Below, one piece after another: positions 7,527 through 25,157 of a stretch of DNA of 46,883 bases. The DNA lies in assembly GCA_017616445.1 (NCBI GenBank), contig JAFZYE010000032.1, forward strand, positions 1 to 46,883. The letters run 5' to 3'. This DNA comes from Bacteroidaceae bacterium. GTDB taxonomy: Bacteria; Bacteroidota; Bacteroidia; Bacteroidales; Bacteroidaceae. The notes under the pieces are model-generated. The model was given only the letters and a program-made list of their open reading frames with translations, was not told where the DNA came from and ran no database searches. The position numbers were made by a program, and so were the translations under genes. Each line of letters starts with the position of its first letter. Position 1 is the stretch's first letter.

Positions 7527-8801
7527 ATGAGATTAGAAACACTACATAAACCATTCGCTTGGGTACCAACACTTTATTTAGGCGAATCGCTTCCTTTTTC
7601 AGCTGTGATGCTGATATCGGTCATCATGTTCAAGGACTTCGGACTGACGGACGGGCAGATAACCGTCTATACAGGTTGGCTGGGTCTGCCTTGGGTGGTG
7701 AAACCTCTGTGGAGTCCGTTTATCGACAACTTCAAAACCAAACGCTGGTGGATTCTGTCGATGCAGTTCGTCTTAGGAATCGCTTTGGCGATGGTGGCTT
7801 TCACGATTCCTACTGCCTACTGGTTGCAGGGCTCGCTGGCCATCTTCATGCTTATCGCATTTGCGAGTGCCACACATGATGTGTCAGCTGACGGGTTCTA
7901 TATCATCGGCTTGAAGGAGAAGGATCAGGAGCTGTATGTGGGCGTGAGAAATACCTTCTATCGAATAGGAATGGTGATAGGACAGGGAGGATTGGTGTTG
8001 CTGGCCGGTTATCTGCAGGACGGAAAGCTGGGGTCGGCATTTCAGTCAGCATCTGCATCATGGATGGTGGTGTTCCTGATTTTAGGCATACTGATGGTGT
8101 TGCTCGGCATCTATCATAGTTTTGCGTTACCCAAGGTGGAAGCATCACTGCACGATGACTTCAACCTGAAGACGCAACTGATAGAGTTCTGGAATACATT
8201 GAAGGTGTTTGCCACAAAGCCCCATGTCATCACCGCTTTGTTGTTTATCCTGTTGTTCCGTTTGCCTGAAGGACTGTTGACGAAGGTTGTGCCGCTGTTC
8301 CTCACTCGTGATGTGGCAGAAGGCGGACTGGGTATGAGTAACGTGGATTTCGGACTGATCTACGGAACGCTGGGTGTGATAGGACTCTTGGCTGGAGGAA
8401 TCGTAGGTGGTTGGGCTGTGTCGAAATGGGGACTGAAACGATGCCTGTGGCCACTTGTGCTGTGTATCACTTTACCTGATTTGGTCTATGTGTACCTGAG
8501 TTATTTCCCTACAGACCAATTATGGCTGACAGGAACCTGTGTCTGCATTGAGCAGATTGGTTATGGTTTGGGATTTGCTGCATACACACTCTTCCTTGTT
8601 ACGTTCTCACGAGGCGAACGCAGCACGGCAGTATTTGCTATCTGTACGGCAGGACAGTATCTGGGCGGTGTGATGTTGCCTGGAATGGTATCTGGACTGA
8701 TATCCGAGAATGTGGGCTATCAGACTTTCTTCCTGATAGTGATGGCGTTTTGCCTGATCACTTTTACCGTCACAGCTTTAGTAAAGGTGAAAAACGATTA
8801 G
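7527..8801 (+). CDS. AmpG-like MFS permease
   Basis: 424 residues, about 12 hydrophobic segments. The N-terminus WVPTLYLGESLPFSAVMLIS and the following GLTDGQITVYTGWLGLPWVVKPLWSPFID match AmpG-type transporters, which bring anhydro-muropeptides from the periplasm into the cytoplasm. The short hydrophilic loop KVEASLHDDFNLKTQLIEFWNT separates the two halves. It follows the SpoIID gene on the same strand after a 145-bp repeat-containing gap. The context (SpoIID, sugar-nucleotide-type enzyme) fits wall recycling. The stop overlaps that of the convergent lipoprotein gene by 4 bp. An unrelated MFS substrate cannot be excluded. Confidence 0.8.
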   Translation: MRLETLHKPFAWVPTLYLGESLPFSAVMLISVIMFKDFGLTDGQITVYTGWLGLPWVVKPLWSPFIDNFKTKRWWILSMQFVLGIALAMVAFTIPTAYWLQGSLAIFMLIAFASATHDVSADGFYIIGLKEKDQELYVGVRNTFYRIGMVIGQGGLVLLAGYLQDGKLGSAFQSASASWMVVFLILGILMVLLGIYHSFALPKVEASLHDDFNLKTQLIEFWNTLKVFATKPHVITALLFILLFRLPEGLLTKVVPLFLTRDVAEGGLGMSNVDFGLIYGTLGVIGLLAGGIVGGWAVSKWGLKRCLWPLVLCITLPDLVYVYLSYFPTDQLWLTGTCVCIEQIGYGLGFAAYTLFLVTFSRGERSTAVFAICTAGQYLGGVMLPGMVSGLISENVGYQTFFLIVMAFCLITFTVTALVKVKND

Positions 8802-9109
8802 CGTAGGCTTTTACGCTTTTCCATCAACTTTTTGTTATAGACCTTTTCGACTCTGGTCACTTCTTTCGAAGTCATGATTTTGTTCTGTTGAACAGGATCA
8901 AGGCCTTTGAGAGATTTGTTGATGTCGCCAATCAGCAGCTGAGAGGCTGTTTTCAGCGCATTCTGAGATTTGGCGTTGTCAACACGTTCGATGGCGTCGT
9001 TGAAACTCTTTACCACTTTTTCCTGAGGGGTAGATGGACCACAAGCCGTCAGCATCAGTGCCAGCGCGATGGTGGCACAGAACGATAGAAGGTGTCTGTA
9101 AGTCTTCAT
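8798..9109 (-). CDS. small lipoprotein, 103 residues
   Basis: A signal peptide with lipobox LTAC (Cys23) predicts an acylated envelope protein of about 80 residues. The mature part is helical and basic (STPQEKVVKSFNDAIERV...KRKSLR). It resembles short DUF4878-like envelope lipoproteins, but the match is loose. Its stop overlaps that of the permease gene by 4 bp in convergent orientation. Confidence 0.75.
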   Translation of the reverse strand: MKTYRHLLSFCATIALALMLTACGPSTPQEKVVKSFNDAIERVDNAKSQNALKTASQLLIGDINKSLKGLDPVQQNKIMTSKEVTRVEKVYNKKLMEKRKSLR

Positions 9110-9340: not shown

Positions 9341-9955
9341 TTAGAGACCGAGCGATTTCTTTACGTCATCGGCTGCTTTATCGATGGCTTCGTTAGCCTT
9401 TTGCTTCTGAGCATCGATTGCCTCGTTTGCTTTCTGCTTCTGTGTCTCTACTGCTTCGTTTGCTTTGTTCTCAACATCTGTCTTTGCGGCTTCGGCTGCA
9501 GATGCTGCTGCATCGACAACTCCTTCTGCTGCCTCTGTTGCGTTCTCTGCTACATCCAAAGGCAGAGCTGCCATTTTCTGGATGAGGTCAGCGATAGATG
9601 CATCAGCTGATTCTGCAACAGTGGAACTGACTGCTTCAACTTCTTCCTTGTTGGTCACAAGAAACTCCTGGAGGGACTCTAAGTACTTCTGTGCAACTTC
9701 AACGTTGCCTGCATTGATCAATGCTTGGATGCGAGCCTTAAATGCTTCGATAGAACTCTGGAGAGCAGGAGCGTCTTTTGCCTCGACGTCAGCTGTGATT
9801 TCACCCATCAGCTCGTTGAGGTCCTCATCTACGATTGCCTCCACATCTGTTGAAGTAGAGTCTTGATCCGTGTTGGCAGATGTGCTACCATTGCATGCGC
9901 AGTAAGTTGCAGAAATTGCGATTGTTACAGCAACCATTACAATAATTCTCTTCAT
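9341..9955 (-). CDS. exported Ala/Glu-rich coiled protein with QKQKANEAID repeats
   Basis: 204 residues. The N-terminal signal ends in a possible but weak lipobox (YCAC, Cys21). The mature part is acidic and helical. The C-terminal third carries near-perfect 11-residue repeats (QKQKANEAIDA, QKQKANEAIDK), giving an apolipophorin/LEA-like amphipathic helix. There is no catalytic motif. Its own promoter and terminator indicate a monocistron. It is probably a periplasmic or outer-membrane-attached structural or stress protein; this is inference. Confidence 0.75.
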   Translation of the reverse strand: MKRIIVMVAVTIAISATYCACNGSTSANTDQDSTSTDVEAIVDEDLNELMGEITADVEAKDAPALQSSIEAFKARIQALINAGNVEVAQKYLESLQEFLVTNKEEVEAVSSTVAESADASIADLIQKMAALPLDVAENATEAAEGVVDAAASAAEAAKTDVENKANEAVETQKQKANEAIDAQKQKANEAIDKAADDVKKSLGL

Positions 9956-10124: not shown

Positions 10125-12062
10125 ATGAGAGTATTGCATATAAATAATAGGTGGATTATTGTAGCGGTCGCGTTGATGGCCATTGTCCTCAGCGGATGTG
10201 AAGACGATAGAAAATACGTGAGTAAGATGCACAGCATCGTGGTCTTTCACTCATGGTCAAACCAAGGAGAAGAGGGTGAACCATTTTCTGAGGAGATGGA
10301 CGAAGCATTGGAGTTCTATAACATGTATGCGAACGTACACCATATTTATATGGATATGCTCTGCCATACTCCCGAAGACTTTGACAAAACACTTTGGCCT
10401 GCGTATGCTGATTCCTTTAAAGTGTGGAAGCCTGAACTGATATTAATCAATGATGACCCTGCTTTGCAATGGATGTTGAAATGCAAGCACGATGAAGTGT
10501 TCCGAGAACTGCCTGTTGTCTTTGCGGGTATCAACCGCCTGGATATAGAAGTGTTGCAGGATTACATGAATCTCACGGGATTCGTGGACAGAATAGAGGT
10601 TACCAAGACTTGTGAGATGATTGCCGATTTGACGGACGTAAGGACAATCATCATAGAATTGGATAACTATGAACATGACAGTTTCCTGCGTGAACTGATT
10701 AAAGAGGATTTGGATGAGAATCCGAAGTTTATTGATAACAGCGATTTCCATTTGGAGTTAGGTTCGCCCGAATACGAGAAGGCAACCAAGGATAAGATAT
10801 GTGTGATGATGGTATCATGTCAGAATCCTTTGTTGTTTATTGATCCTTCGCGAAAGGAGAAAACAATCGAGACGATGAAGAACCTGATGAGAAACGCACA
10901 GGATTATACGTTCCTGCAAGTGAAGTATGATGTCTACAGCAACACCTTGCAGACACGTGGCAGACGACCGATGTTCACCTGTATCCGCGAACAGTTTAAC
11001 AATCCGGATGATCCAGTCATCATCGGTGGCTACTTTACAGACCTCCATACCCAGGTGTTCGAGCAGATACAGTATGCTGCGGCCATCTTGGAGGATGGAC
11101 AGCAACCGGACGTCATGCCTGTTTCGTTGCATTCCAAGCAACATCTGATTGACCATAATGCGATTGGTAGATTCAATAAGGAATCACGCCATCTGGATAT
11201 GTTTACAGGCCTCAGGGAAGTCCTCGTGGAAGGATGGGGCGAAGAGTATAATATCGTCAACTCGCCCTTCTACATGAAGAGCCGCAGATACTGGATTGTC
11301 GGTGTGGTTCTGTTCCTTATTGCCGCTATCGTTATCGGTTCTTGGTTGGTGAAAATCGTCAACAGACGACTCAAGGCTTATCGTGAGCAGCTCGCAGAGG
11401 AAATGGACGAGGCGTTGAACTTCCGTCGCAACATCCTGTCAGATGCAGATTCTGCCGTTTGGAAGTTTACGCATAATACCGTGCAGTTTACGAACGATTT
11501 CTCCAAGCAACATGGAATCAAACGCAAAATGAAGTTCACGGAATTCGAGAAGCATATCCATCCCGATTACTTGACCGAATGGAACAAACTGAAGAATTTC
11601 CGAACCGACTTAGGCCGTCGTCGAGTTCGACTGCAGATGGAGTTCCAACCAGGTTCGGGCTGGCATTGGTATGATTTTATATATAATGTGACGACAGAGG
11701 CCAGCTTCCGTTGGGAGTTGAGCGGACTGATTATCAGTGCCGATGAGGTGATGAGTCAGCAGCAGCAGTTGAGGGATGCCGTAAAAGATGCGAAGGAAGT
11801 AGAATTGAAGGAGAAGTTCCTTGCCAATTTCCGACATATTCTGCAAGAACCGTTGCAGACAGTCTTGAAGAATGCACGTGAAATCATTTCGAACACAGAG
11901 CAACAGACTGCAGAGCAACAGGAACAGTTCAACCAAGAACTGCATCAAGGTGCAACAGAGTTGATTGCAAACATCGATGCGTTAGTTGCTGAAGTTCAGC
12001 CGATTGTGGACACAGCTCCCGTAACTCCTGAGCAAGAGCCGGAAACGAACGACTCCATTTAA
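10125..12062 (+). CDS. sensor kinase paralogue 1: periplasmic sensor with His-containing DHp-like helix, no ATPase domain
   Basis: 645 residues. The signal has lipobox LSGC. A periplasmic domain of the ABC substrate-binding type (HSIVVFHSWSNQGEE..., VVFAGINRLD, IIIELDNYEHDS) leads to the conserved NIVNSPFY and one membrane segment at about 389-412. A cytosolic PAS-like part follows, then a helix NFRHILQEPLQTV that aligns with the HEIRTPLN H-box and keeps a His at 571. The protein stops about 75 residues later without N, G1 or G2 boxes, so it cannot bind ATP as a kinase. It begins the four-gene cluster. It could be a receptor or phosphoacceptor partner of the following kinases, or a decayed copy; the reading frame is clean. 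Confidence 0.8.
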   Translation: MRVLHINNRWIIVAVALMAIVLSGCEDDRKYVSKMHSIVVFHSWSNQGEEGEPFSEEMDEALEFYNMYANVHHIYMDMLCHTPEDFDKTLWPAYADSFKVWKPELILINDDPALQWMLKCKHDEVFRELPVVFAGINRLDIEVLQDYMNLTGFVDRIEVTKTCEMIADLTDVRTIIIELDNYEHDSFLRELIKEDLDENPKFIDNSDFHLELGSPEYEKATKDKICVMMVSCQNPLLFIDPSRKEKTIETMKNLMRNAQDYTFLQVKYDVYSNTLQTRGRRPMFTCIREQFNNPDDPVIIGGYFTDLHTQVFEQIQYAAAILEDGQQPDVMPVSLHSKQHLIDHNAIGRFNKESRHLDMFTGLREVLVEGWGEEYNIVNSPFYMKSRRYWIVGVVLFLIAAIVIGSWLVKIVNRRLKAYREQLAEEMDEALNFRRNILSDADSAVWKFTHNTVQFTNDFSKQHGIKRKMKFTEFEKHIHPDYLTEWNKLKNFRTDLGRRRVRLQMEFQPGSGWHWYDFIYNVTTEASFRWELSGLIISADEVMSQQQQLRDAVKDAKEVELKEKFLANFRHILQEPLQTVLKNAREIISNTEQQTAEQQEQFNQELHQGATELIANIDALVAEVQPIVDTAPVTPEQEPETNDSI

Positions 12063-12104
12063 AATAAACCGGGATTGTAGTATTGACTAATTGAAGAAAG
12101 AAAA

Positions 12105-14399
12105 TTGAAGAAGAATTTCTACATATTGCAGAGAGTGATGGTGCTGGTGGGCATTATCGGATTGTTGTATGGATGTAAACCAAGTACTCCGATAAGGGTG
12201 CTGGTTGTGCATCAGTATAATGAAGATTTAGTGACGTATGATGCATTCGATGATGCCATCATTGACGAATTCAGGAATCATGGTTATGAGCCTACAATCG
12301 TGAACTATTACATGAATCTGGAGGATCAGGCCAATTTGGATAGTCACCAGGTGTTGGCTGAAATGCGCGATTCGCTTGAAAGGCGAAACTGGACTCCCAA
12401 TGTGATTCTTGCAGAGGGCGACCGTACCTTGTTCCAATGGAACAGGCCCGACAACCAATCAACCCTTTCCTGGAGTAAAGAGGTGCCAATTGTATATGGC
12501 GGTATTCGTTTCTACAAAATACCTTCTTTTGTTAAACGTAAGAACACGTATGTCATCTATGAGCAGATGAATATACGCAGGAATCTGGATATCATCAACC
12601 GACTGACACACAACAGGATTGTAGCCATAGAGTTGGACAATTACCACGAGGATTCATTGATTTATGCCCAAATCAACCATCAGGTGGGTACATCGCCTTA
12701 TGCCGTAAAGAAAGACAGTGTAGGCTATGTTCAAGGCCGATTGAATCCTGTGATTCATTGTAACGATACCTTATCTATTTATTTCTATTCTGCTGAATGG
12801 AATGAAGAGAGTACTGGTGTGTACACCTCTTCTGCCGACAATGTTGAGACCGATTCGCTGATTACTCCTAATTCCATGAATCGTCAGGCGCTGTTGGACA
12901 ATATGTATCAGAATGCCTGGAGATATCCCGTACTTGTTCCAAAGAAGGATGTGTGGAGCGAGGCCATTGCTTCAAAGACCTATCGACCACAGTTTACCAC
13001 CTGTCATGAGTTGTTCAAGGATGGCAGAGGTTCTTATTTGGCGGGTTACTTTGCCGGTTATCCATCAATGGCCAAGGATATGGTCAAGTTGGCTGTTGGT
13101 GTTTATGAGGGAAAAACGATGCCTACAAAGAGCATGCATATCCAGAATGCCTACATGGATTATGTAGCGATGGATAAGCTGGGCATGAAATACAGTGATT
13201 ATAAGGATGAGTTCATCATCGACAATGCTCCGATGAAGGTGACGAATCCGTTGCTTTATAGTATTGTGACGGTTGGAAACTTCCTCTGGATAACCCTTAT
13301 CATTTTAACGATTACGCTCATCTGGTTGAAGAACCGTAAGGATTCAATCCGTAACTTGTCGGCCATGCTCGATGAGGAAAGGGAAATGAACCAGTTGGCG
13401 ATTGATGCCTCAGGTAACTTCTATATTTCCAGTTTGAAAGGCTTGGAGCGCGTGTTGGATAGTATGGGACCTGATCAGGAAAGATGTAAGGAGGACATCA
13501 ACCATTCTTTGGGTGAGACGGGTACGCATACCCATTCCTACAGAATCAGGGCAGCGATGGACGAAGAGAAGAATATGGCATGGTGGAATTTACGTTATCA
13601 GGTTAATTACAACACCTCTGTTGGGTTTAATATCGAGGGGTATCTGCTCAACGTGAATGATGATGTGAACTATGCTAATGAGATGAAGCAGATTCAGAAG
13701 ATTGCCGACGAGACCAAGCGCACGGAAGGATTCCTCTGGACGATGGCCCATGAGATACGTACTCCTCTTAATTCAATCGTGGGCTTCTGCGATGTGATTA
13801 AGATGATGGGAAATGAGATGAGCGAGCAGGAACGCACACAGATTGTTCAGGGTATCGAGTCGAATAATGAGTTGCTTGAAAAGATTGTGGACGACATGGA
13901 CGGATACTCACGTGCCGTCGCAAACGAGGTGGTCTACGAAAAAGAACTCATCAATGTCGGCGAGTTGGTTGAAGAGGTCTATGCCGAGAATACGGCTCGT
14001 TTCGAAAAACAGGGATTGAAGTTCCTGCTGATGAAGGGACGTTCCGATGTCTTTGTGAAGGCCGACCGTGGTAGGTTGAAGGAATCATTGTGCCAGCTGG
14101 TCGATAATGCATTTAAGTTCACACCGCAAGGTAATGTCGCTCTGGGGTGGGAGTACAATCTGGATCATGGAAATGTGGAGTTGTTTGTCGAAGACACGGG
14201 AATCGGTATTTCTGAGGAAGACCTGCCACTCATCTATGATATGTTCTGGAAGAAAGACACCTTTGTTCCTGGAGTAGGTATCGGACTTGCTCTTGCTAAG
14301 ACCTATATCGAAGCAATGGGAGGAAAGTTAACCGTGATGAGCGAAAAAGAGCTCGGAAGCCGTTTTATGATTACATTTAAAGTGATTGAGTCAGCATGA
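12105..14399 (+). CDS. sensor kinase paralogue 2: complete histidine kinase
   Basis: 764 residues from a TTG start. The TTG gives a normal basic N-region (MKKNFYILQR) and follows a GAAGAAAG sequence, whereas the next ATG would leave a signal without positive charge. Lipobox LYGC is followed by a periplasmic solute-binding-type domain (IRVLVVHQYNEDL, VAIELDNYHEDS), IIDNAPMK, and a membrane segment at about 382-408. The H-box MAHEIRTPLNSIVGF has His549. The N-box LVDNAFKFT, G1 DTGIGI and G2 GVGIGLALAK are all intact. It is the only full kinase of the four. It lies 42 bp after paralogue 1 and overlaps paralogue 3 by ATGA. No receiver domain is fused. Confidence 0.88.
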   Translation: MKKNFYILQRVMVLVGIIGLLYGCKPSTPIRVLVVHQYNEDLVTYDAFDDAIIDEFRNHGYEPTIVNYYMNLEDQANLDSHQVLAEMRDSLERRNWTPNVILAEGDRTLFQWNRPDNQSTLSWSKEVPIVYGGIRFYKIPSFVKRKNTYVIYEQMNIRRNLDIINRLTHNRIVAIELDNYHEDSLIYAQINHQVGTSPYAVKKDSVGYVQGRLNPVIHCNDTLSIYFYSAEWNEESTGVYTSSADNVETDSLITPNSMNRQALLDNMYQNAWRYPVLVPKKDVWSEAIASKTYRPQFTTCHELFKDGRGSYLAGYFAGYPSMAKDMVKLAVGVYEGKTMPTKSMHIQNAYMDYVAMDKLGMKYSDYKDEFIIDNAPMKVTNPLLYSIVTVGNFLWITLIILTITLIWLKNRKDSIRNLSAMLDEEREMNQLAIDASGNFYISSLKGLERVLDSMGPDQERCKEDINHSLGETGTHTHSYRIRAAMDEEKNMAWWNLRYQVNYNTSVGFNIEGYLLNVNDDVNYANEMKQIQKIADETKRTEGFLWTMAHEIRTPLNSIVGFCDVIKMMGNEMSEQERTQIVQGIESNNELLEKIVDDMDGYSRAVANEVVYEKELINVGELVEEVYAENTARFEKQGLKFLLMKGRSDVFVKADRGRLKESLCQLVDNAFKFTPQGNVALGWEYNLDHGNVELFVEDTGIGISEEDLPLIYDMFWKKDTFVPGVGIGLALAKTYIEAMGGKLTVMSEKELGSRFMITFKVIESA

Positions 14400-16786
14400 A
14401 ATTCATGAAATACATATTATTCGTTATTGCTACAGCCTTTCTGTTGATTGGGTGCGGTAAAGGCGCTGGTGAAGGTGCCGATTATCGCATTCTTGTGATT
14501 CACTCAAACGATAGCATCGGAGAGGATGGCGCTCCATATCAGCAGTATATGGCAGAGCGGTTCCAGGACGAAGGAATCAACGCCCAGATTTTCCACTTCT
14601 ATGCCGACTATATTCACTCGACCCCGCAAAACGTGATCGATGATGGTTTGGGCCATTTGGAAAGAGTGAAAAAGTTCAACCCGAACTTGATTATTGTTGA
14701 CGGAGACGGTATGACAAATATGATCATCAACGATGTCAGCCGCTTGTCTCCTGAGGTTGAGGCGGCAAAGAGGGCTGTCTTCGATAAGATACCGGTTGTA
14801 TTCGCGGGTGTCAACAACCTCAATCGGGATGCTTTGGCTCGCCATAAGAACATGACTGGATTTGTGGACGAGATCGACCTCAAGCGCAATCTGGAAATCG
14901 TCAACCAGATTACCGGTAGCCACAATGTCTTGATAGAACTTGATCACTTCGAGAGCGATTCCCAATTGCAGAGCGATTTGAAGCGCCAGATCCGGGATGG
15001 CAGGTTTGTCGACAACTCTGATTTCCATGTGAACAGCTTGGATGCGAAGTCCTTGGCGAAACAGTATCCTGATAAGATTGTGGTAAGTTTCATCTCTTCT
15101 GCCGAGCCCGAGACCAATACCTACTTCGATGAGAACGATTCTTCATTGATGACTTTCGGCAAGGAGCGTGCCCTGTTGCGCGGATTGTTGCGTACCCTGA
15201 AAGGCAATTGGCTCCTACAGGTCAAGAACGATATCTTCAGCACCAGTTTCCTGCGTCACTCAGAGCATCCCCAGTTTACGGCCATACGTGCACATTTCAA
15301 CAACCCCGAAGAGGTGCGTTTGCTGGGTGGATATTTCTCTCTCATGCAGACACAGGTCGATGATGTCGTCGATTATGCCGTACAGATCCTGCATGGAACC
15401 AACCCGCAGAGTCTCCCCGTTAAGATTCATCACGCAGACTACTACATGGATTATAATGCGATGACCAAATGGACAGCTACACCGATGGACTATGATGACT
15501 ATCGTGATAGTTTCACCATCCTCAATGCACCGTTTAAGGTACGTCATCCGTTCCTCTTCTGGATTATCGTTTCAGTCCTCGCATTGATGGTGCTGGGTCT
15601 TATCGGCTATCTCGGCTACTATGTCATGAACTATAAGTCGCAGAACGAACGTATGATGACAACCATCATGCGACGCGAGAAAATACGACGACTCATGTTG
15701 ATTCATTCCCAGAACCTGATATATTGGTTCATCGATAACGGCTACATCCGTTTGCAAAAGGGATTTGCCGATAAGTACGGTCTGCCACAGGAGATGCCTC
15801 TTGCCGACTTCGGCAAGATGGTTTTGAAGGATAGCACCTATTCCTGGAAACTCATCACCGAGTATGGCGACGAGACCGGCTCCAACAAGGTACGCATACA
15901 CCTGCAGCTGACCCCCGACGAAGTTCATTGGATTGAATTCCGCTTCAATTCCACCCACGAGTCAAGCCGTAAGCGTCAGCTCAACGGTACAGCCGTCATC
16001 TGCGACGAGGAAGTCGAGGAAGAAGAGAATATCGGCCGCCTGAACACCATCGCAAACGAAAGCGTGCTCCGACAGTCGTTCCTCAGCGAAATGAGTCAGA
16101 GCCTCCGAAACCCCCTGAATGGAGTGTTGGGATTCTCGCAGCTCATTGCTGCAGGCAGCGAGATGCAGTTCACCAACGACGAGCTGAAAGACTTCAACCG
16201 GCAGCTCAAGGAAAGTGCAGACGGCATCATCAAGGCAATCGACGACAAGCTCCACGAGTCACGGCTCGAAATCCGAGACATCAACCTGCAACTCATAGCC
16301 ACACCCGCTCGCGATTTCCTCACATCCATCTATCAGGCCAGCCAACTCATCATACCCTCCCACCTTCAGTTGCGACTCACGTGCGACACCCACGATGCCT
16401 TCGTCATGATGGCACCAGCCTACACACGTACCGTCATGAATGCATTCATCAGCAATGCCATCAAGTACACCGTAACAGGATATATCGAAATCGGATACAC
16501 ACTCATGCCCCAACTCGACCTCGTCAAGTTCTATTGCAAGGATACAGGCATCGGAGTCAGCCAGGAAAATCTCCAACGAGTCTTCGAAAGCCATTTCCAG
16601 GTCTTCGACTACGATAAAGGACAGGGACAGGGACTCTCCGATGCGAAGGCAGTCATCGAAAAGGAAAATGGAGAAATCGGTGCAGAAAGCCAGGAAGGCG
16701 TAGGCAGCACCTTCTGGTTCACACTCAAACGAGTCGATGCAACCATCGTCGAACAATTGGAAGAGAAAGATAAAATGCAAGTATAA
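14396..16786 (+). CDS. sensor kinase paralogue 3: ATPase domain intact, H-box His replaced by Gln
   Basis: 796 residues. Lipobox LIGC; a periplasmic sensor domain (YRILVIHSNDSIGEDG, VVFAGVNNLNRD, LIELDHFESDS); TILNAPFK; a membrane segment at about 384-411; a PAS-like part. The H-box reads MSQSLRNPLNGVLGF with Gln568 where the phosphoacceptor His should be. The N-box FISNAIKYT, G1 DTGIGV and G2 KGQGQGLSDAK are preserved. It starts in the ATGA overlap with paralogue 2. The His loss with a conserved ATP site suggests a partner that phosphorylates another subunit or regulates it, which is inference. Confidence 0.87.
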   Translation: MKFMKYILFVIATAFLLIGCGKGAGEGADYRILVIHSNDSIGEDGAPYQQYMAERFQDEGINAQIFHFYADYIHSTPQNVIDDGLGHLERVKKFNPNLIIVDGDGMTNMIINDVSRLSPEVEAAKRAVFDKIPVVFAGVNNLNRDALARHKNMTGFVDEIDLKRNLEIVNQITGSHNVLIELDHFESDSQLQSDLKRQIRDGRFVDNSDFHVNSLDAKSLAKQYPDKIVVSFISSAEPETNTYFDENDSSLMTFGKERALLRGLLRTLKGNWLLQVKNDIFSTSFLRHSEHPQFTAIRAHFNNPEEVRLLGGYFSLMQTQVDDVVDYAVQILHGTNPQSLPVKIHHADYYMDYNAMTKWTATPMDYDDYRDSFTILNAPFKVRHPFLFWIIVSVLALMVLGLIGYLGYYVMNYKSQNERMMTTIMRREKIRRLMLIHSQNLIYWFIDNGYIRLQKGFADKYGLPQEMPLADFGKMVLKDSTYSWKLITEYGDETGSNKVRIHLQLTPDEVHWIEFRFNSTHESSRKRQLNGTAVICDEEVEEEENIGRLNTIANESVLRQSFLSEMSQSLRNPLNGVLGFSQLIAAGSEMQFTNDELKDFNRQLKESADGIIKAIDDKLHESRLEIRDINLQLIATPARDFLTSIYQASQLIIPSHLQLRLTCDTHDAFVMMAPAYTRTVMNAFISNAIKYTVTGYIEIGYTLMPQLDLVKFYCKDTGIGVSQENLQRVFESHFQVFDYDKGQGQGLSDAKAVIEKENGEIGAESQEGVGSTFWFTLKRVDATIVEQLEEKDKMQV

Positions 16787-16789
16787 CCA

Positions 16790-19066
16790 ATGAGAAAACA
16801 CATCACATACATCACCCCCCTCATCCTCACAGCACTCCTGCTGGGAGCAATCCAGGCGTGTCGCAACCAGCCAACACAGCGTAAGCATGTCCTTATCATC
16901 CTCACCAACGACAGTCAGCATAGCCAGTATCCACCATTCATCAAGGAAATACAGCAAACCATCGAACTCAGCGGCTATGTCACCGATTGCAGGGTCTTAT
17001 ACATGGATCTTGAGTATTCGCCCGATGCTGCCTTCAATGTCTTGCATCAGTTGAACGACACATTGAGTAAGGCACAATGGAAGCCAGATGTCATCATCAC
17101 TGAGGACGACCGTTCGGCACGTATTCTGCTCGCCGACACATCCGATAAGTTCCTGAATGTGAAGAGGACACCAATCGTGCTTGGTTCTATTTCCTTCCCC
17201 GAGGAGATAAATCTGAAAGGTACGACCAACATCTGTATGTGGACCAACAAGATTGATTTCTACGAAAATATCAAGCTTGCATACGAGTTATCGGGCAAAA
17301 ACCAAGTGCAGATTGAACTTGATAATTATATTTACGATGTTCTCATACGTCGTGAACTGAACGAGGCCATCAGTCGTCCTCCCTTTGTCCGGAATTTCGA
17401 TGGAGCGCTGGGCGTCATCAGCGATCAGCAGCTCGCAGGAAAATACAAAGACAGTATCGTGGTCACTACTCAGAGAATCGATTATGGCTGGTACGATACC
17501 CGTAATCCTAACGATACCATCTTGAGACGTAGGGAGCTGATGCGTTCGTTCTTTAAACAATCGAGCAAGTATCCTTCGCTTGTCGTGAAGAAAGATGTCT
17601 ATTGTGATGCGATTGCCAATAAATCCAATCTGCCTCAGTACACAGCCATCACGACTGATTTCGCAGACGGAATGGGTAGTTATCTGGCTGGTTATTTCGC
17701 AAGCTATAGTACCATTGCACACGATTGTGGTCTCTCTACGGCTCGTATCTTCAATGGTGCCAATCCGCGTAGCATAGGTGGACAGGCCCATAAGAAGTAT
17801 TTCTGGATGGACTACGATGCCATGCAGAAAATGGGAATGAAATACGATGATTATATTGATAAATTCCGCATTGTAAACGCGCCGTTCGAAATCGAACACC
17901 CGACTCTGTATGTGGTTTTGGTGGTTGCTGCCATCTTGCTCATATTGTTGATTCTGTTCGGTCTTTGGGTCATCTTCGTCAGAATGCGTGGGCGTTTGCA
18001 GGAGGAGAAGCTGGAGGTGATAGGACGTTCGCGCAACATCAGCCGATTGTGTCTCAACAGTATAGAGAATATGCCTATTGAGACAGTCGATGATATCAAG
18101 AAATATATCTCATTAGCCCATCCTAAGAGTAAGAAGGAGATAGAAAAGGTGCGTGACAGTCTTGACAAACCTGGATCATATAGTTTCCTGATCTATTGTG
18201 CTCCAAAGGATGATGACAAGTATCAGTGGTGGGAATTCCGCTATGATATTACCTCTTCGGACGTTATTGGTTTGATTATCAACAAGCAAGAGGCCATCAA
18301 ACTGAAGGAACGTCTCGATAGTGCTACACGAAACAGTCGGGAGGCAAGCCGTAAGGAGGCCTTCTTCAATAACCTCAGCAACGAGATGAAGAAACCGCTG
18401 GATGTGATGTGTAACGCTTGTGACAGGCTCATCAACGAAAAGCTCTCGAAAGCGGAGCGTGAAAAGGTCGTGACCGAAATGCAGGAAAGTAGTGAGGCCG
18501 TTTCTCAAAGCTTGGGTGACATCCTCCTTTTCTCGAAAATCGAGTCTGGACGTCTGCGCTATATGATTACCGAGAAAGATGCCGGCGAGTTCTTGACTGG
18601 GTTCTATAACGAAATGGCACCCAAAGTTCCGTCACATCTTAACTTTGTCCTCGTTTCCGGACGCTCAAGAGTATATGCTCAGGCCGATTTCGACCGACTC
18701 CGTAATGTGATGACTCAGTTCATGCTCAATGCCATCAAATTCACACGCGAGGGATCTATTGAGATTGGCTGGCGTTATTATCTTGACAGCCATGAGTGCG
18801 AGTTTTTCGTCGAGGATACAGGAATCGGTATTCCAGCTGAAGCAAAAGACAGGTTGTTCGATCTCTTCTGGAAGGGTGAGGAAACGTCTGAGGGTGTCGG
18901 AGTGGGACTCAATATCTGTCGTAGCCTGGCCGAAGCCATGCAGGGACATATCAGCGTAGGCAGTATCGTCGGAAGAGGTAGCCGATTCAGTATCTGGCTA
19001 CCCGCAAGAGCCCTCTCACAGAATCAGGAGTTGCCAGAGCAGCAAGGGACAACCAAGATTCTGTAG
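16790..19066 (+). CDS. sensor kinase paralogue 4: ATPase domain intact, H-box His replaced by Asn
   Basis: 758 residues, starting 3 bp after paralogue 3. Signal with lipobox-like IQAC; a periplasmic domain (KHVLIILTNDSQHSQY, QIELDNYIYDV); RIVNAPFE; a membrane segment at about 370-397. The H-box reads LSNEMKKPLDVMCN with Asn531 in the His position. The N-box FMLNAIKFT, G1 DTGIGI and G2 GVGVGLNIC are intact. It ends the cluster before a bidirectional terminator. There is no receiver domain. It is the second member with ATP-binding motifs but no acceptor His. Confidence 0.87.
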   Translation: MRKHITYITPLILTALLLGAIQACRNQPTQRKHVLIILTNDSQHSQYPPFIKEIQQTIELSGYVTDCRVLYMDLEYSPDAAFNVLHQLNDTLSKAQWKPDVIITEDDRSARILLADTSDKFLNVKRTPIVLGSISFPEEINLKGTTNICMWTNKIDFYENIKLAYELSGKNQVQIELDNYIYDVLIRRELNEAISRPPFVRNFDGALGVISDQQLAGKYKDSIVVTTQRIDYGWYDTRNPNDTILRRRELMRSFFKQSSKYPSLVVKKDVYCDAIANKSNLPQYTAITTDFADGMGSYLAGYFASYSTIAHDCGLSTARIFNGANPRSIGGQAHKKYFWMDYDAMQKMGMKYDDYIDKFRIVNAPFEIEHPTLYVVLVVAAILLILLILFGLWVIFVRMRGRLQEEKLEVIGRSRNISRLCLNSIENMPIETVDDIKKYISLAHPKSKKEIEKVRDSLDKPGSYSFLIYCAPKDDDKYQWWEFRYDITSSDVIGLIINKQEAIKLKERLDSATRNSREASRKEAFFNNLSNEMKKPLDVMCNACDRLINEKLSKAEREKVVTEMQESSEAVSQSLGDILLFSKIESGRLRYMITEKDAGEFLTGFYNEMAPKVPSHLNFVLVSGRSRVYAQADFDRLRNVMTQFMLNAIKFTREGSIEIGWRYYLDSHECEFFVEDTGIGIPAEAKDRLFDLFWKGEETSEGVGVGLNICRSLAEAMQGHISVGSIVGRGSRFSIWLPARALSQNQELPEQQGTTKIL

Positions 19067-21018: not shown

Positions 21019-24000
21019 TCATTCCAGCATTTTCTGCAACGCTTCATCGTTTCCATTATCTGCATAGTATGCCACAAATTCCTTGGGTGACATACCGAAG
21101 TACTCACGGAATACGTTACTGAAATATGGGTGCGACGAGAATCCCATGCGGTATGCTACGTCCGAAATGCTGACTTTATTGTTGACAAGCAGGTAAGCCG
21201 ACTGCTTCAGGCGGTATGACCGGATGAAGTTGACGGGCGACATGCCATAACGTTCCTTCATCTTACGGTTCAAGTGTACGCGACTCACACCCACCTCGCT
21301 GGCCAGTTCGTTCACGCCGAACGTCGAGTCGTCGATATGTGCCTTGATGGCCTGAATCACTTTCCCGAACATCTTGTCTTCCGGATTGTCAATCGTCGTT
21401 TCGTTGTAGTCGAATCCCACTTCCGTACGGCGCAGACGGCTCATCATTCGTTCTCTGACACGCATGCTGTGTGCTACTGCTCCTTGCAGCATGAGCGGGT
21501 TGAACGGTTTGTTGATGAAGTGGTCCACGTCGAGGTTCAGACTGTATATCATGTTTTTGTCGCTGCTCTCGCTCGTGAGGATAATGATTGGCAGGTTGTC
21601 TGTATCTGGGTTGCTCCTGATGCGTTTACACAGTTCTATACCGTCGCATACAGGCATACGTATATCCGTTACGACTGCGTCAGGACGTTGCGTCAGGATC
21701 TGCTGCCAAGCGCTGTTGCCGTCGTAGGCCATCATGATGTTATAGCGTTCCTTCAGGATGTCTCTGATGTAGTCACACAGGGTCGCGTCGTCATCTACCA
21801 CGAGAACCGTCCGGACTTTCTTCTCGCCCGTCTCGTCCTCCTCCTCCGAGTCGTCTATGTCGATATCGGGCACGTCCATCAGTTCTTTCACCGTTGGCTC
21901 TGCGTTCTCTGTTTCGTCTCTCGTCTCCAGTTCGTCCGTACTGAGGTGGGTACGTCCCAATGGGAATTGCATCGTGAATTCCACACCGTCAGGGTTTACG
22001 TTGTTCACGGAGAGCGTACCATGATGCAGGTTCACCAGTTCTGTTGCCAGGTTCAGTCCTATTCCAGATCCTCCGGTATTGAGCGCCTCCTGGTTGCGTG
22101 CCTGATAGAATCGTTCGAAGATATGAGGCAAGTCACGAGGGTCAATCGACGAGCCGCTGTTGTACACGCGAATCTCGAACCAGTCCTTCGCGTCCTTGAT
22201 GATGCTACGTGTTCTCACAATCACCCTTCCGCCCTCAGGCGTGAACTTGAATGCGTTCGACAGCAGGTTGGTCAGGATTTTCTCGAAATGTACCTTGTCA
22301 ATCCAGATGTTGACGTTGTTGTTTGCATGTTCAATCACGAACGAGATGCGTTTTGATATGGCATATCCGGTGAACGTCTTGAATATCTCGTCGGCATACG
22401 ACGCAAAGTTGGTCTCCGAGAAGTGCAGCTCAAATTGTCCGCTATCAATCTTACGGATATCCGTCACCTGTTTCACGATGTCCAGCAGGCGGTCGCAGTT
22501 CATGCTCATCACCTTGTACAGACTCTGGCGCTGTTCCTCATCCTTCTTCAGTTTTTCATCTTTCACTTTTTCACCCTTCCCTTCTTTCTGGGTGGTCTTC
22601 ACCTTTTCTGTCTCTTCTTGTTCGCTCATGAGCTGCCTGAGGGGCGACATAATCATCGTCAGCGGTGATTTCATCTCGTGGGCGATGCTGGCAAACATCC
22701 TCAGTTTCGCCTCCTTGATTTGTTCGTTGTGGCTCACCTGAGCGAGCAGGTGTTTCTGCCGCTCACGTTCCTTGTAGGTGATGTAGAGATAGTAGCCAAT
22801 CAGTGCGGCAAGTGCCAGATAGATGAGCCACGCCCACCAAGAGGCGTACCAGGGATAGCCCACGTAGATGTCCAGCGATTTCTCCACCACAGCGTTCTCG
22901 TTGTTCTCGTAGTACGCACGTACCGTCAGCGTGTACGACCCCGATGGGAGGCTCGAATAGTAGGCCTCGTGGTTCGAACCTGCCAAGTGCCAGTTCTTGT
23001 CGTAGCCCTCCAGCTTGTAGTTGTAGAAGATGCGGTTAGGCGATGAGTAGTTAGGCACACTGAACTCAAAATCCAGCGTGTTCTGGTCGTAGGGCACGTT
23101 CAGCTTCGTAGCAAACTGCAACGCCTGATCCAGCACGTTATCGTCGCTTCCCTCTTCGTAGTAGCGTTCGTAGCCGTTCACCTTCAGACGGGTGAATAGC
23201 AGTGAGTTGTTCAGCTGCCGTTGCTGTTTCAGGTTCATCGCGTTGAATCCGATGACACCGTTGTCGGCTCCGTAGTATATCATGTGTGAGGCTGTCTGAT
23301 ATGATGTATTTCTGTGGAAGTCGCCTATGTAGTAACCACCGAACGACGTATAGGTGTGCGCCATGTTCGTCTTCTTGTCGATACGGACAATGCCGCTCGT
23401 GGTAGCCAGCCAGATGTCAGAGTCGGTCGTCTCCATCGACATCACATTACGGCCGGGCAGAATCAGACGCGCCTTGCCTTTGCGGATGTCGTACTTGAAC
23501 AGACCTGCGTTCGTACCGATCAGCAGGTCATGACCGTCTGTTCCGAAACACTGGGCTGACAGATTCCCGTTTTCCTCAAAGCTGAATACCTTCAGCCGCA
23601 GGGTCGTGGGGTTGAACATGAACGACTCGCTTACCGTTCCACACCATACCATACCCATCGGGTCGCAATACAGCGAGCTCACCCATGCGTTGAAGTCGCC
23701 GTATTTCGTGAGCGGTGTGATTTCGTGGGCTGTCAGATCCAGCATCTGCACACCGCCTCCGTTTGTTGCGGCATACAGCCTGTGGAGTTGTGGGTCGTAG
23801 GCAATCGACATCACCATCAGTTTCGAGAGCGGCTCCAACCAGCTCGGTGTGACAAACCGTCCGCCTTGCAGACATTGAACGCCGCCGCCGAACGAGCACA
23901 CCCATACCACACCGTCCTTGTCCACATCGATGTCCTGCACCAGCAGCGACGACAGACCTTCGTTCATCAGCACCGCATTGCTCAGGTCGGCATTCGGGCT

Positions 24001-25137
24001 TTTCAGCACACCGCATCCGTCGGCACAGATCCAGAAATTACCCTCGTGGTCGGCTGTGATGGCAGAGATACAAGCTACGTTCGTTTTGGCCGAGGTAGGC
24101 GATATGGGCAGGTAGGCAAAGTTGTCGCGACTGTTTGACACCACCAGCACACCTTTTTGGTACATGCTGATAATCAGGTTGCCCTCGTCGTCCTCGTCAA
24201 TCGACCTCACCTTTGCATACGTCATGTCGATATTGTGGTCGGCAATAGGGTAGGGCACCACATTCTCATCCTCATCCATCTCCCACAGTCCGTGACTGTC
24301 TGTACCCAGCAACACCCTGCCGCTCTTCGTCTCTTTCACACACAACACCATCATCTGCGTATCCTCCCTACCTTTCAGTTTGCGTATCAGTTTTTCCTTT
24401 CGGTCATATATCAGCAGACCGCCACCTGTGGCAATCACGACGTTCTTCGATTTCTTCAGCTCGTATATGTCCGTCACGCTATGGTTGTCAAGCATCGTCT
24501 GCGCTTCTGCAGTCATGCTGGGCATCACGTTCTTCATCCGTTTCAGGTCGATACAGAACAGGCTCTGGTTGATTCCGCTGCCCCACAGACAACTGTCTGC
24601 GCTGATCATGACATCCCTGAAAAAACCGGTTATGATGTGGCTTCCGATGGCTTCTGTCAGTTTCTTGTCCACCTTCTTGGCTGCCATGTCAAACACAAAC
24701 AGACCGTAGCCCGAGGTGGTGATGAGCGCATAGTCCTCCTTCGGATAGCGAATCATGCGGTGGATGGGCAGGTCGTGTTCGGCCTCTTCGTCCGAGATGA
24801 CCACATGCTCCACACTGTTCGTCCTTAGGTTCATCAGTCGCAGTCCGCGGCTTGTGGCCAGCCAGTACATGTCGTTCTTGTATTCCATCACGTTGAGAAA
24901 CACCGCATGCTCCAGTTCCTTGTTCCCCTTCAGCACATCCCTGAAGGTCGTGCCGTCAAACAGTTGCAGCATATCCACACCCATCACCCACGTCATTCCG
25001 TTCGAGTCGAACCGTGCGGTGTACAACGAGCTCGATTTCAGCCCGTTCTGAGTCGTATAGAGCCGTGCATACTGAGCCCTGCCCGACAAGGCCGTCAGCA
25101 GCAATCCCACGATAAAGATGATATGTATTCTTCTCAT
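21019..25137 (-). CDS. hybrid two-component system regulator (HTCS), sensor-kinase-receiver-AraC
   Basis: 1372 residues from the ATG at 25135-25137. Signal peptide; Reg_prop beta-propeller repeats to about residue 690 (VWVCSFGGGV, WLATTSGIVRIDKK); a Y_Y_Y domain near 690-770; a membrane helix at about 775-795. HisKA has SIAHEMKSPLTMI (His820). HATPase has LLSNAFKFT, FERFYQ and GGSGIGLNLA. The receiver has TDIRMP (Asp1158). The AraC-type DNA-binding end is GFSSHPYFSNVFREYFGMSP. In this class a glycan fragment is sensed in the periplasm and the nearby degradation genes are switched on. An unusual Lys/Glu insertion of about 30 residues (about 838-869) separates the two HisKA helices. The neighbours GH30 and CE1 suggest a xylan-type ligand, which is inference. 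Confidence 0.93.
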   Translation of the reverse strand: MRRIHIIFIVGLLLTALSGRAQYARLYTTQNGLKSSSLYTARFDSNGMTWVMGVDMLQLFDGTTFRDVLKGNKELEHAVFLNVMEYKNDMYWLATSRGLRLMNLRTNSVEHVVISDEEAEHDLPIHRMIRYPKEDYALITTSGYGLFVFDMAAKKVDKKLTEAIGSHIITGFFRDVMISADSCLWGSGINQSLFCIDLKRMKNVMPSMTAEAQTMLDNHSVTDIYELKKSKNVVIATGGGLLIYDRKEKLIRKLKGREDTQMMVLCVKETKSGRVLLGTDSHGLWEMDEDENVVPYPIADHNIDMTYAKVRSIDEDDEGNLIISMYQKGVLVVSNSRDNFAYLPISPTSAKTNVACISAITADHEGNFWICADGCGVLKSPNADLSNAVLMNEGLSSLLVQDIDVDKDGVVWVCSFGGGVQCLQGGRFVTPSWLEPLSKLMVMSIAYDPQLHRLYAATNGGGVQMLDLTAHEITPLTKYGDFNAWVSSLYCDPMGMVWCGTVSESFMFNPTTLRLKVFSFEENGNLSAQCFGTDGHDLLIGTNAGLFKYDIRKGKARLILPGRNVMSMETTDSDIWLATTSGIVRIDKKTNMAHTYTSFGGYYIGDFHRNTSYQTASHMIYYGADNGVIGFNAMNLKQQRQLNNSLLFTRLKVNGYERYYEEGSDDNVLDQALQFATKLNVPYDQNTLDFEFSVPNYSSPNRIFYNYKLEGYDKNWHLAGSNHEAYYSSLPSGSYTLTVRAYYENNENAVVEKSLDIYVGYPWYASWWAWLIYLALAALIGYYLYITYKERERQKHLLAQVSHNEQIKEAKLRMFASIAHEMKSPLTMIMSPLRQLMSEQEETEKVKTTQKEGKGEKVKDEKLKKDEEQRQSLYKVMSMNCDRLLDIVKQVTDIRKIDSGQFELHFSETNFASYADEIFKTFTGYAISKRISFVIEHANNNVNIWIDKVHFEKILTNLLSNAFKFTPEGGRVIVRTRSIIKDAKDWFEIRVYNSGSSIDPRDLPHIFERFYQARNQEALNTGGSGIGLNLATELVNLHHGTLSVNNVNPDGVEFTMQFPLGRTHLSTDELETRDETENAEPTVKELMDVPDIDIDDSEEEDETGEKKVRTVLVVDDDATLCDYIRDILKERYNIMMAYDGNSAWQQILTQRPDAVVTDIRMPVCDGIELCKRIRSNPDTDNLPIIILTSESSDKNMIYSLNLDVDHFINKPFNPLMLQGAVAHSMRVRERMMSRLRRTEVGFDYNETTIDNPEDKMFGKVIQAIKAHIDDSTFGVNELASEVGVSRVHLNRKMKERYGMSPVNFIRSYRLKQSAYLLVNNKVSISDVAYRMGFSSHPYFSNVFREYFGMSPKEFVAYYADNGNDEALQKMLE
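22535..22628 (-). repeat. in-frame low-complexity insertion in the HTCS kinase helix pair
   Basis: On the coding strand this segment contains GTGAAAAAGTGAAAGATG and related words with a 7-8 bp period. It resembles the AGTGAAA heptamer array at 1381-1408. It encodes a highly charged EETEKVKTTQKEGKGEKVKD segment not expected between HisKA helices. The relation to the arrays is inferred. Confidence 0.5.
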
Positions 25138-25157
25138 AAGCAAAGGATTTGATGGTG

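Follow-up and report, generated by a model that had tools for sequence, protein, structure and literature searches.

The window analysed here, a 46,883-nucleotide stretch of contig JAFZYE010000032.1 from a rumen-type Bacteroidaceae bacterium (assembly GCA_017616445.1; the genome is 70% complete), carries four tandem genes for membrane sensor kinases, which we refer to as P1–P4. We favour the view that they encode a membrane receptor made from two copies of an A–B sensor-kinase pair (P1–P2 and P3–P4), in which P2 would be the whole kinase, the others its partners and a receiver protein the output, and we put the probability of this at roughly 0.6. Comparative sequence analysis establishes the anatomy of the locus, its recurrence in other genomes, the A–B ancestry of the genes, natural A–B fusions, a patterned loss of kinase functions and purifying selection. 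Because of the pattern of losses, the context of the P1 His and the constraint on the P3 and P4 ATPase domains, P2 looks like the only complete kinase of the four, while P1, P3 and P4 look like retained, specialised partners and not broken genes; they are probably modulators of P2, with P4 perhaps an ATP-using one.

All four genes are on the forward strand, with P1 at 10125..12062, P2 at 12105..14399 (TTG start), P3 at 14396..16786 and P4 at 16790..19066. P1 and P2 are separated by 42 bp, P2 and P3 overlap by 4 bp and P3 and P4 are 3 bp apart, and these open reading frames (ORFs) match exactly the four tandem sensors, with gaps or overlap of 3–42 bp, listed in a first-pass annotation of this DNA. 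Each protein has one N-terminal hydrophobic segment and a solute-binding-type sensor followed by one transmembrane (TM) segment; the sensors were located by profile matches in P1 (periplasmic, 10227..11297, also by fold match), P2 (12189..13262), P3 (14480..15565) and P4 (16883..17917). Of the motifs annotated as shared, the invariant IELD, N(A/S)P(F/M) and the single TM segment after the sensor were all confirmed, and the lipobox is clear in P1–P3 but marginal in P4 (IQAC, read by eye).

Each of the four proteins has a PAS-like region and a DHp hairpin. The kinase regions differ, as judged from the ORFs, Pfam and, for P1, a structure model. P1 is a lipoprotein sensor that continues into a PAS-like region and a DHp hairpin with no HATPase domain: neither HisKA nor HATPase_c was matched in Pfam at E-values up to 1, the N, G1 and G2 boxes found in P2, P3 and P4 are missing, and the H-box around His571 (codon 11835..11837; FRHILQEPL) is non-canonical, with no acid at H+1. 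P2 has HisKA and HATPase_c matches of 41.3 and 68.8 bits, His549 (13749..13751) within AHEIRTPL and its HATPase_c domain at 14064..14381. The corresponding scores are 32.6 and 53.1 bits for P3, which has Gln568 at the acceptor position (16097..16099), a HATPase_c domain at 16427..16732 and an atypical G2 box (GQGQGL), and 27.5 and 79.7 bits for P4, which has Asn531 (18380..18382) and intact boxes in its HATPase_c domain (18686..19009). A HisKA domain with a phosphoacceptor His is found in P2 alone, and not in the set as a whole, as P3 has Gln, P4 has Asn and the P1 His lies in a protein with no HisKA match. The residues and domains first annotated (His571 without an ATPase domain, a complete P2 with His549, and Gln568 and Asn531 with N, G1 and G2 boxes) therefore stand, and the likeness of the H-boxes to HisKA holds for P2–P4 but fails for P1.

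We traced the origin of the four genes using a sensor profile built on A2 (the P3 type), which at 1e-15 matched 49 of 301 genomes in the family and 14 of 295 in the order, short partial matches included. Units from the fetched loci were discarded if their sensor match was shorter than 250 residues or if they had no DHp match, which left 107 sensor-to-DHp units. A quick tree was made of all of these and a careful one of 47 chosen rows, and the two agreed in placing the P1 and P3 types with the first genes or halves of pairs in Clade A, and the P2 and P4 types with the second genes or halves in Clade B. In the 47-row tree these two ancient sister clades have support of 100/99 each, and A1, A2, B1 and B2 each form a single clade (bootstrap 98–100). 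The A and B halves of the tree mirror each other when judged by eye, and in the 107-unit tree some more distant kinases, both single and paired, belong to neither clade. From this agreement we read the four genes as an A–B pair that was duplicated before the split of two genera, with P1 as A1, P2 as B1, P3 as A2 and P4 as B2. Four equal paralogues are ruled out by the A and B clades, and the earlier idea of one function divided among four proteins is better replaced by a duplicated pair, each copy of which has lost different parts.

The conserved gene order that the first-pass annotation suggested looking for was recovered in six further genomes. When P4 was searched in 17 genomes of the window's genus, the four-gene set was found in five, the window's included (the other clusters are L059, L060, L062 and L039, with L061 being the same contig as L039), and the remaining 12 had no sensor match at 1e-15. 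The congener assemblies are of uncultured Prevotellaceae, Bacteroidales or Bacteroidaceae, one of them labelled sheep reticulum. A second genus, g2, has the set in two genomes, as four genes in L043 and with P1 and P2 fused (1361 aa) in L040, which brings the total to seven clusters with the same gene order. All 20 genes of the five congeneric genomes are open and the ORFs are unbroken in all seven clusters; an assembly artefact is ruled out by the repetition of the gene order in four other assemblies of the genus.

Across these clusters (in the order window, L059, L060, L062, L039, L043 and L040), the acceptor position reads H, H, H, H, H, Q, S in the P1 types, H throughout in the P2 types, Q, Q, Q, R, H, H, H in the P3 types (His-less in four of seven) and N, K, K, K, K, R, R in the P4 types (never His). 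Every P1 type lacks the ATPase domain, which all 21 P2, P3 and P4 types have, and P4 has intact N, G1 and G2 boxes in each cluster. In the four clusters where P3 has no His, its G2 box is GQGQGL, GEGQGL, GSGQGL or GAGQGL; in L039, the congener that keeps the His, the box is GTGLGL and the acid after the His is also missing. This distribution indicates that P1 lost its ATPase domain and P4 its His long ago, both losses being common to the two genera, and that Gln568 of P3 is a sublineage trait which is not fixed (the other congeners have Q, Q, R and H). The annotated His/Gln/Asn pattern is therefore conserved in that P4 never has His, but not letter by letter. All 25 of the other kinase loci we fetched from the genus retain the His (these are best matches and not every kinase of the genus), which rules out a chance loss, though there are a few other non-His kinases in relatives.

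Histidine kinases are mostly treated as homodimers. In every fetched locus holding both types, A precedes B, and 19 natural A–B fusions were found, 17 of them in genus g15 and two elsewhere (L040 and L053). All 17 of the pair-carrying g15 genomes in our draw have a single A–B protein of 1530–1779 aa with both kinases complete, and in genus g24 A and B are neighbouring genes that mostly overlap by 4 bp. As A and B are elsewhere adjacent genes or a single fusion, A:B heteromers are the best reading of these data, and the mixed complex proposed in the first-pass annotation now appears likely, given the fusions, the 4-bp overlaps and the mirrored trees. We note that in all 19 fusions (L042, L045–L048, L110–L121, L040 and L053) a hydrophobic stretch that resembles a lipoprotein signal and ends in Cys lies between the two halves (e.g. 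PSSC, TTSC, CGC or VSC), and cleavage or lipidation of the fused chain may take place at this internal lipobox.

Losses of the acceptor are also seen in other pairs. In four g2 B-type units the His is replaced by D, N, F or Y, with the ATPase boxes weakened in L041, L044 and L053 and intact in L049, and in a pair from another family (f9; L093:6127-10754), which has two divergent receivers, the second member lacks the ATPase domain and carries Pro in place of the His. Together with P4, these cases indicate that the acceptor has been lost by the second member in at least three lineages, and by the first member in one (P3). Elsewhere, at L055:2887-4845 and L055:12617-14602, we observed DHp kinases with no usable ATPase match, one of them with Tyr at the His position, adjoining complete kinases.

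Both the His and the ATPase domain are kept by 84 of the 107 units, and 83 of these 84 keep the acid after the His. A docking signature, consisting of G and then F, Y or L after the H-box and having a role in regulator docking, is present in all 84 complete units and all seven P3 types, and in none of the seven P1 or seven P4 types. In the helix that surrounds the His, amino-acid divergence amounts to 0.040 in P2, 0.173 in P3 and 0.243 in both P1 and P4. We consider the P1 His a doubtful acceptor, with no sign of acceptor-type constraint, because it has no acidic neighbour, docking motif or helix conservation; these features, and its replacement by Q or S in the two g2 clusters, rule out P1 as the main acceptor and tell against it as a dedicated one.

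Ratios of non-synonymous to synonymous substitution (dN/dS; Nei-Gojobori, five congeners, per domain, saturated pairs dropped) average 0.037–0.112 over the sensor, PAS-like, DHp and ATPase domains and 0.18–0.31 in the TM linkers, with the sensor domains conserved in all four proteins and ATPase means of 0.050 for P3, 0.061 for P4 and 0.110 for P2. The ratio of DHp to ATPase divergence is 0.52 in P2, 1.23 [0.89–1.67] in P3 and 1.27 [0.94–1.74] in P4, compared with 0.64, 0.48, 0.82 and 0.79 in four groups of complete relatives, and that of ATPase to sensor divergence is 0.95 in P2, 0.89 [0.69–1.12] in P3 and 0.83 in P4, the values being 0.49 [0.40–0.59] and 0.59 [0.48–0.73] for complete A types, and 0.90 and 0.86 for complete B types. 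The helix and both ratios therefore suggest that the acceptor helices of P3 and P4 are relaxed, and that the P4 ATPase domain is not, being as constrained as those of complete B types. The P3 ATPase domain is no worse than that of P2, but beside complete A types it looks relaxed, which agrees with its G2 box. The annotated intact ATPase domains are thus borne out for P4, where the domain is fully kept, and less so for P3, where it is present with signs of weakening.

In the P1 model (mean predicted local distance difference test, pLDDT, 75.7) the two-helix DHp hairpin ends at residue 629 with no domain beyond it, and the best fold matches of the sensor are the solute-binding proteins 3lkv, 3lft (an L-Trp complex) and 6hni (CD0873), with E-values of 8e-11 to 2e-9. 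We take these three to be members of Pfam ABC_sub_bind (PF04392), which in our sensors remains below threshold (best 11.5 bits, in P3, with a cutoff of 25.9), and when solved relatives of the sensor were sought by sequence, the E-values were only 0.014–0.23. The periplasmic fold is the same, but in P1–P4 the sensor is fused to kinases. In the P4 model (mean pLDDT 73; predicted template modelling score, pTM, 0.42) the DHp-ATPase part matches DivL (4q20_B), though ordinary kinases match too and rank higher, so the fold would not decide between a donor and a reader role for P4.

A candidate output is a standalone receiver, R. Alongside the clusters of the window's genus no receiver gene was found within the fetched stretches, except inside a hybrid kinase. 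In g24, two standalone receivers lie about 1.7–1.8 kb from the A–B pair in the loci measured and are present in six of seven pair loci (L052 and L105–L109, and not L051). R is the orthologue of one of these; it is encoded away from the cluster in three congeners (L129:7482-7895, L128:7576-8055 and L130:7406-7861; 96–100% identical) and is also present in g15 and g2 genomes. Counting R at 138 bits or more (a hand count that treats two 301-genome draws as the same set), we found it in 28 of 32 genomes with A–B kinases and in 7 of 269 without (Fisher p about 1e-28, uncorrected for phylogeny), and within the genus in three of five genomes with the set and one of 12 without (p 0.05). This suggests that R is likely to be the output of the A–B kinases. 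By Pfam its neighbours in L129 are a glycosyltransferase, a TPR protein and DUF4838 (those in L128 and L130 look similar by eye), and elsewhere they include membrane AraC-type regulators in L131 and L132 (g2) and in L106 (g24; the Pfam-checked locus) and, in the g15 genome L134, a TackOD1 protein; any connection with surface polysaccharide would be a guess.

In the duplicated-pair receptor we favour, A and B would dimerise through their DHp helices, and ligand on either sensor would bias the A:B dimer. P2 alone in the window could run the whole kinase cycle, having the ATP site, the acidic neighbour, His549 and the docking face. P1 would supply sensing and dimerisation, and P3 and P4 would act as modulators of P2 without being phosphorylated themselves, the ATP site of P4 being functional. 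The phosphate would then go to a standalone CheY-like receiver, whose gene would lie elsewhere or, in relatives, close to the pair. RetS provides a precedent for a partner without kinase activity in the RetS–GacS multikinase network, where, in the part of PMC5992135 consulted, it modulates a complete kinase by direct contact; RetS keeps its His and has a degenerate ATPase domain, whereas the present operon of paralogues shows both kinds of loss.

Several observations weigh against this model. A fusion demonstrates proximity and not hetero-dimerisation, the P1 His is kept in all five congeners, and the P3 ATPase domain looks relaxed. For each domain, 3 to 7 of the 10 pairs have saturated dS and were left out of the dS and dN/dS means, and the P3 and P4 intervals for DHp/ATPase divergence overlap those of some complete groups at their upper ends (to 1.15). 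The association of R with the kinases comes from phylogenetically uncorrected counts, and a search of the 70%-complete window genome did not find R.

The strongest alternative, possible although we doubt it, is a split kinase in which the ATPase domains of P3 and P4 would act in trans, as phosphodonors to the His of P2 (or P1) within a mixed dimer or tetramer. It gains from the P4 boxes being intact in every cluster, from the P4 ATPase domain being constrained while its acceptor helix relaxes, and from the P3–P4 pair having no acceptor at all in four of seven clusters, so that any ATPase role of this pair would need an outside His. It is weakened by the poor credentials of the P1 His, by the GxGQGL boxes of the His-less P3 proteins, by the relaxed P3 ATPase domain, and by P2 needing no donor. 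In a stricter form, the acceptor-less P3–P4, and above all P4, would be a phosphodonor module charging the P2 His according to its own ligands, within a sensor-carrying membrane split kinase that has three ATPase domains for a single good acceptor; this is quite unlikely, the more so given the relaxed P3 ATPase domain. Mycobacterium HK1/HK2 is said to be a split kinase.

Among the matches listed from open-licence PMC papers we found no described system of this composition, as first annotated, but split histidine kinases are already described: CheA3/CheA4 of Rhodobacter sphaeroides is one, and 1556 of 42417 HisKA proteins are reported to have no HATPase (both from the part of PMC3591291 consulted). 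According to the same excerpt, CheA3/CheA4 likewise has acceptor and ATPase functions on separate proteins that must meet and a CheY-like single receiver as output; it differs in being of the CheA class with a P1 domain, and in that neither protein autophosphorylates alone, where here P2 looks complete. The present set has membrane solute-binding-type sensors and a duplicated pair, and in place of separate acceptor-only and ATPase-only proteins P2 by its sequence carries all the boxes, so the set would not need splitting.

An unlikely second alternative is that the P3 and P4 DHp-ATPase folds act as DivL-like readers, binding the phosphorylated standalone receiver and feeding its state back onto P2. 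DivL of Caulobacter, a pseudo-histidine kinase, is a precedent for a partner without kinase activity, with the acceptor His replaced, the DHp-ATPase fold kept and the response regulator DivK in its circuit (PMC4211667, in part). The part of that source consulted describes a single protein with Tyr and PAS inputs, whereas here the residues are N, K, R or Q and a paralogous partner is adjacent or fused. A non-His residue combined with the DHp-ATPase fold is found by sequence in P3 and P4, and in P4 also by modelling. The association of a single-domain receiver with A–B kinases, the P3 docking signature and the P4 match to DivL would all suit readers; the loss of the docking signature from every P4 type, the higher rank of ordinary kinases in the fold search and the missing R in the window genome would not.

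We think it improbable that each protein homodimerises, with P2 signalling and the rest binding ligand only as decoys, since the fusions, A–B order, mirrored trees and fully kept P4 ATPase domain all speak against it, even if the four conserved sensors and the weakening P3 ATPase domain would fit. Decay of duplicates, already largely refuted, is very improbable: the variable P3 acceptor letter and the drift in its G2 box and ATPase domain are what it might predict, but the genes are not often broken as such decay would have left them, dN/dS is low in every folded domain, and the P1 and P4 losses are common to two genera.

The four genes belong to a family that forms an evolutionary series: it starts with two paired kinases that are both complete, continues with natural fusions and ends with pairs in which one partner lacks the acceptor or ATPase domain. 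With these natural sequences, the tasks required of each half of a kinase dimer become testable. An analogy may be drawn with heterodimeric animal receptors, in which subunits with a common solute-binding-type fold divide the work.

Two overlapping small kinases without a sensor form another pair beside R in g2 (L131:4391-6720 and L132:1275-3706), whose second members read by eye as LSTEIRSPL and LGTEIRSPL, with Thr where His is expected. In the window, the receiver nearest to the cluster belongs to a hybrid two-component regulator at 21019-25143 and is not close to R (33% over 102 residues). Upstream of P1, on the opposite strand, are two small lipoprotein-like genes (8798-9109 and 9341-9955), which are retained beside the cluster in four other congeners.

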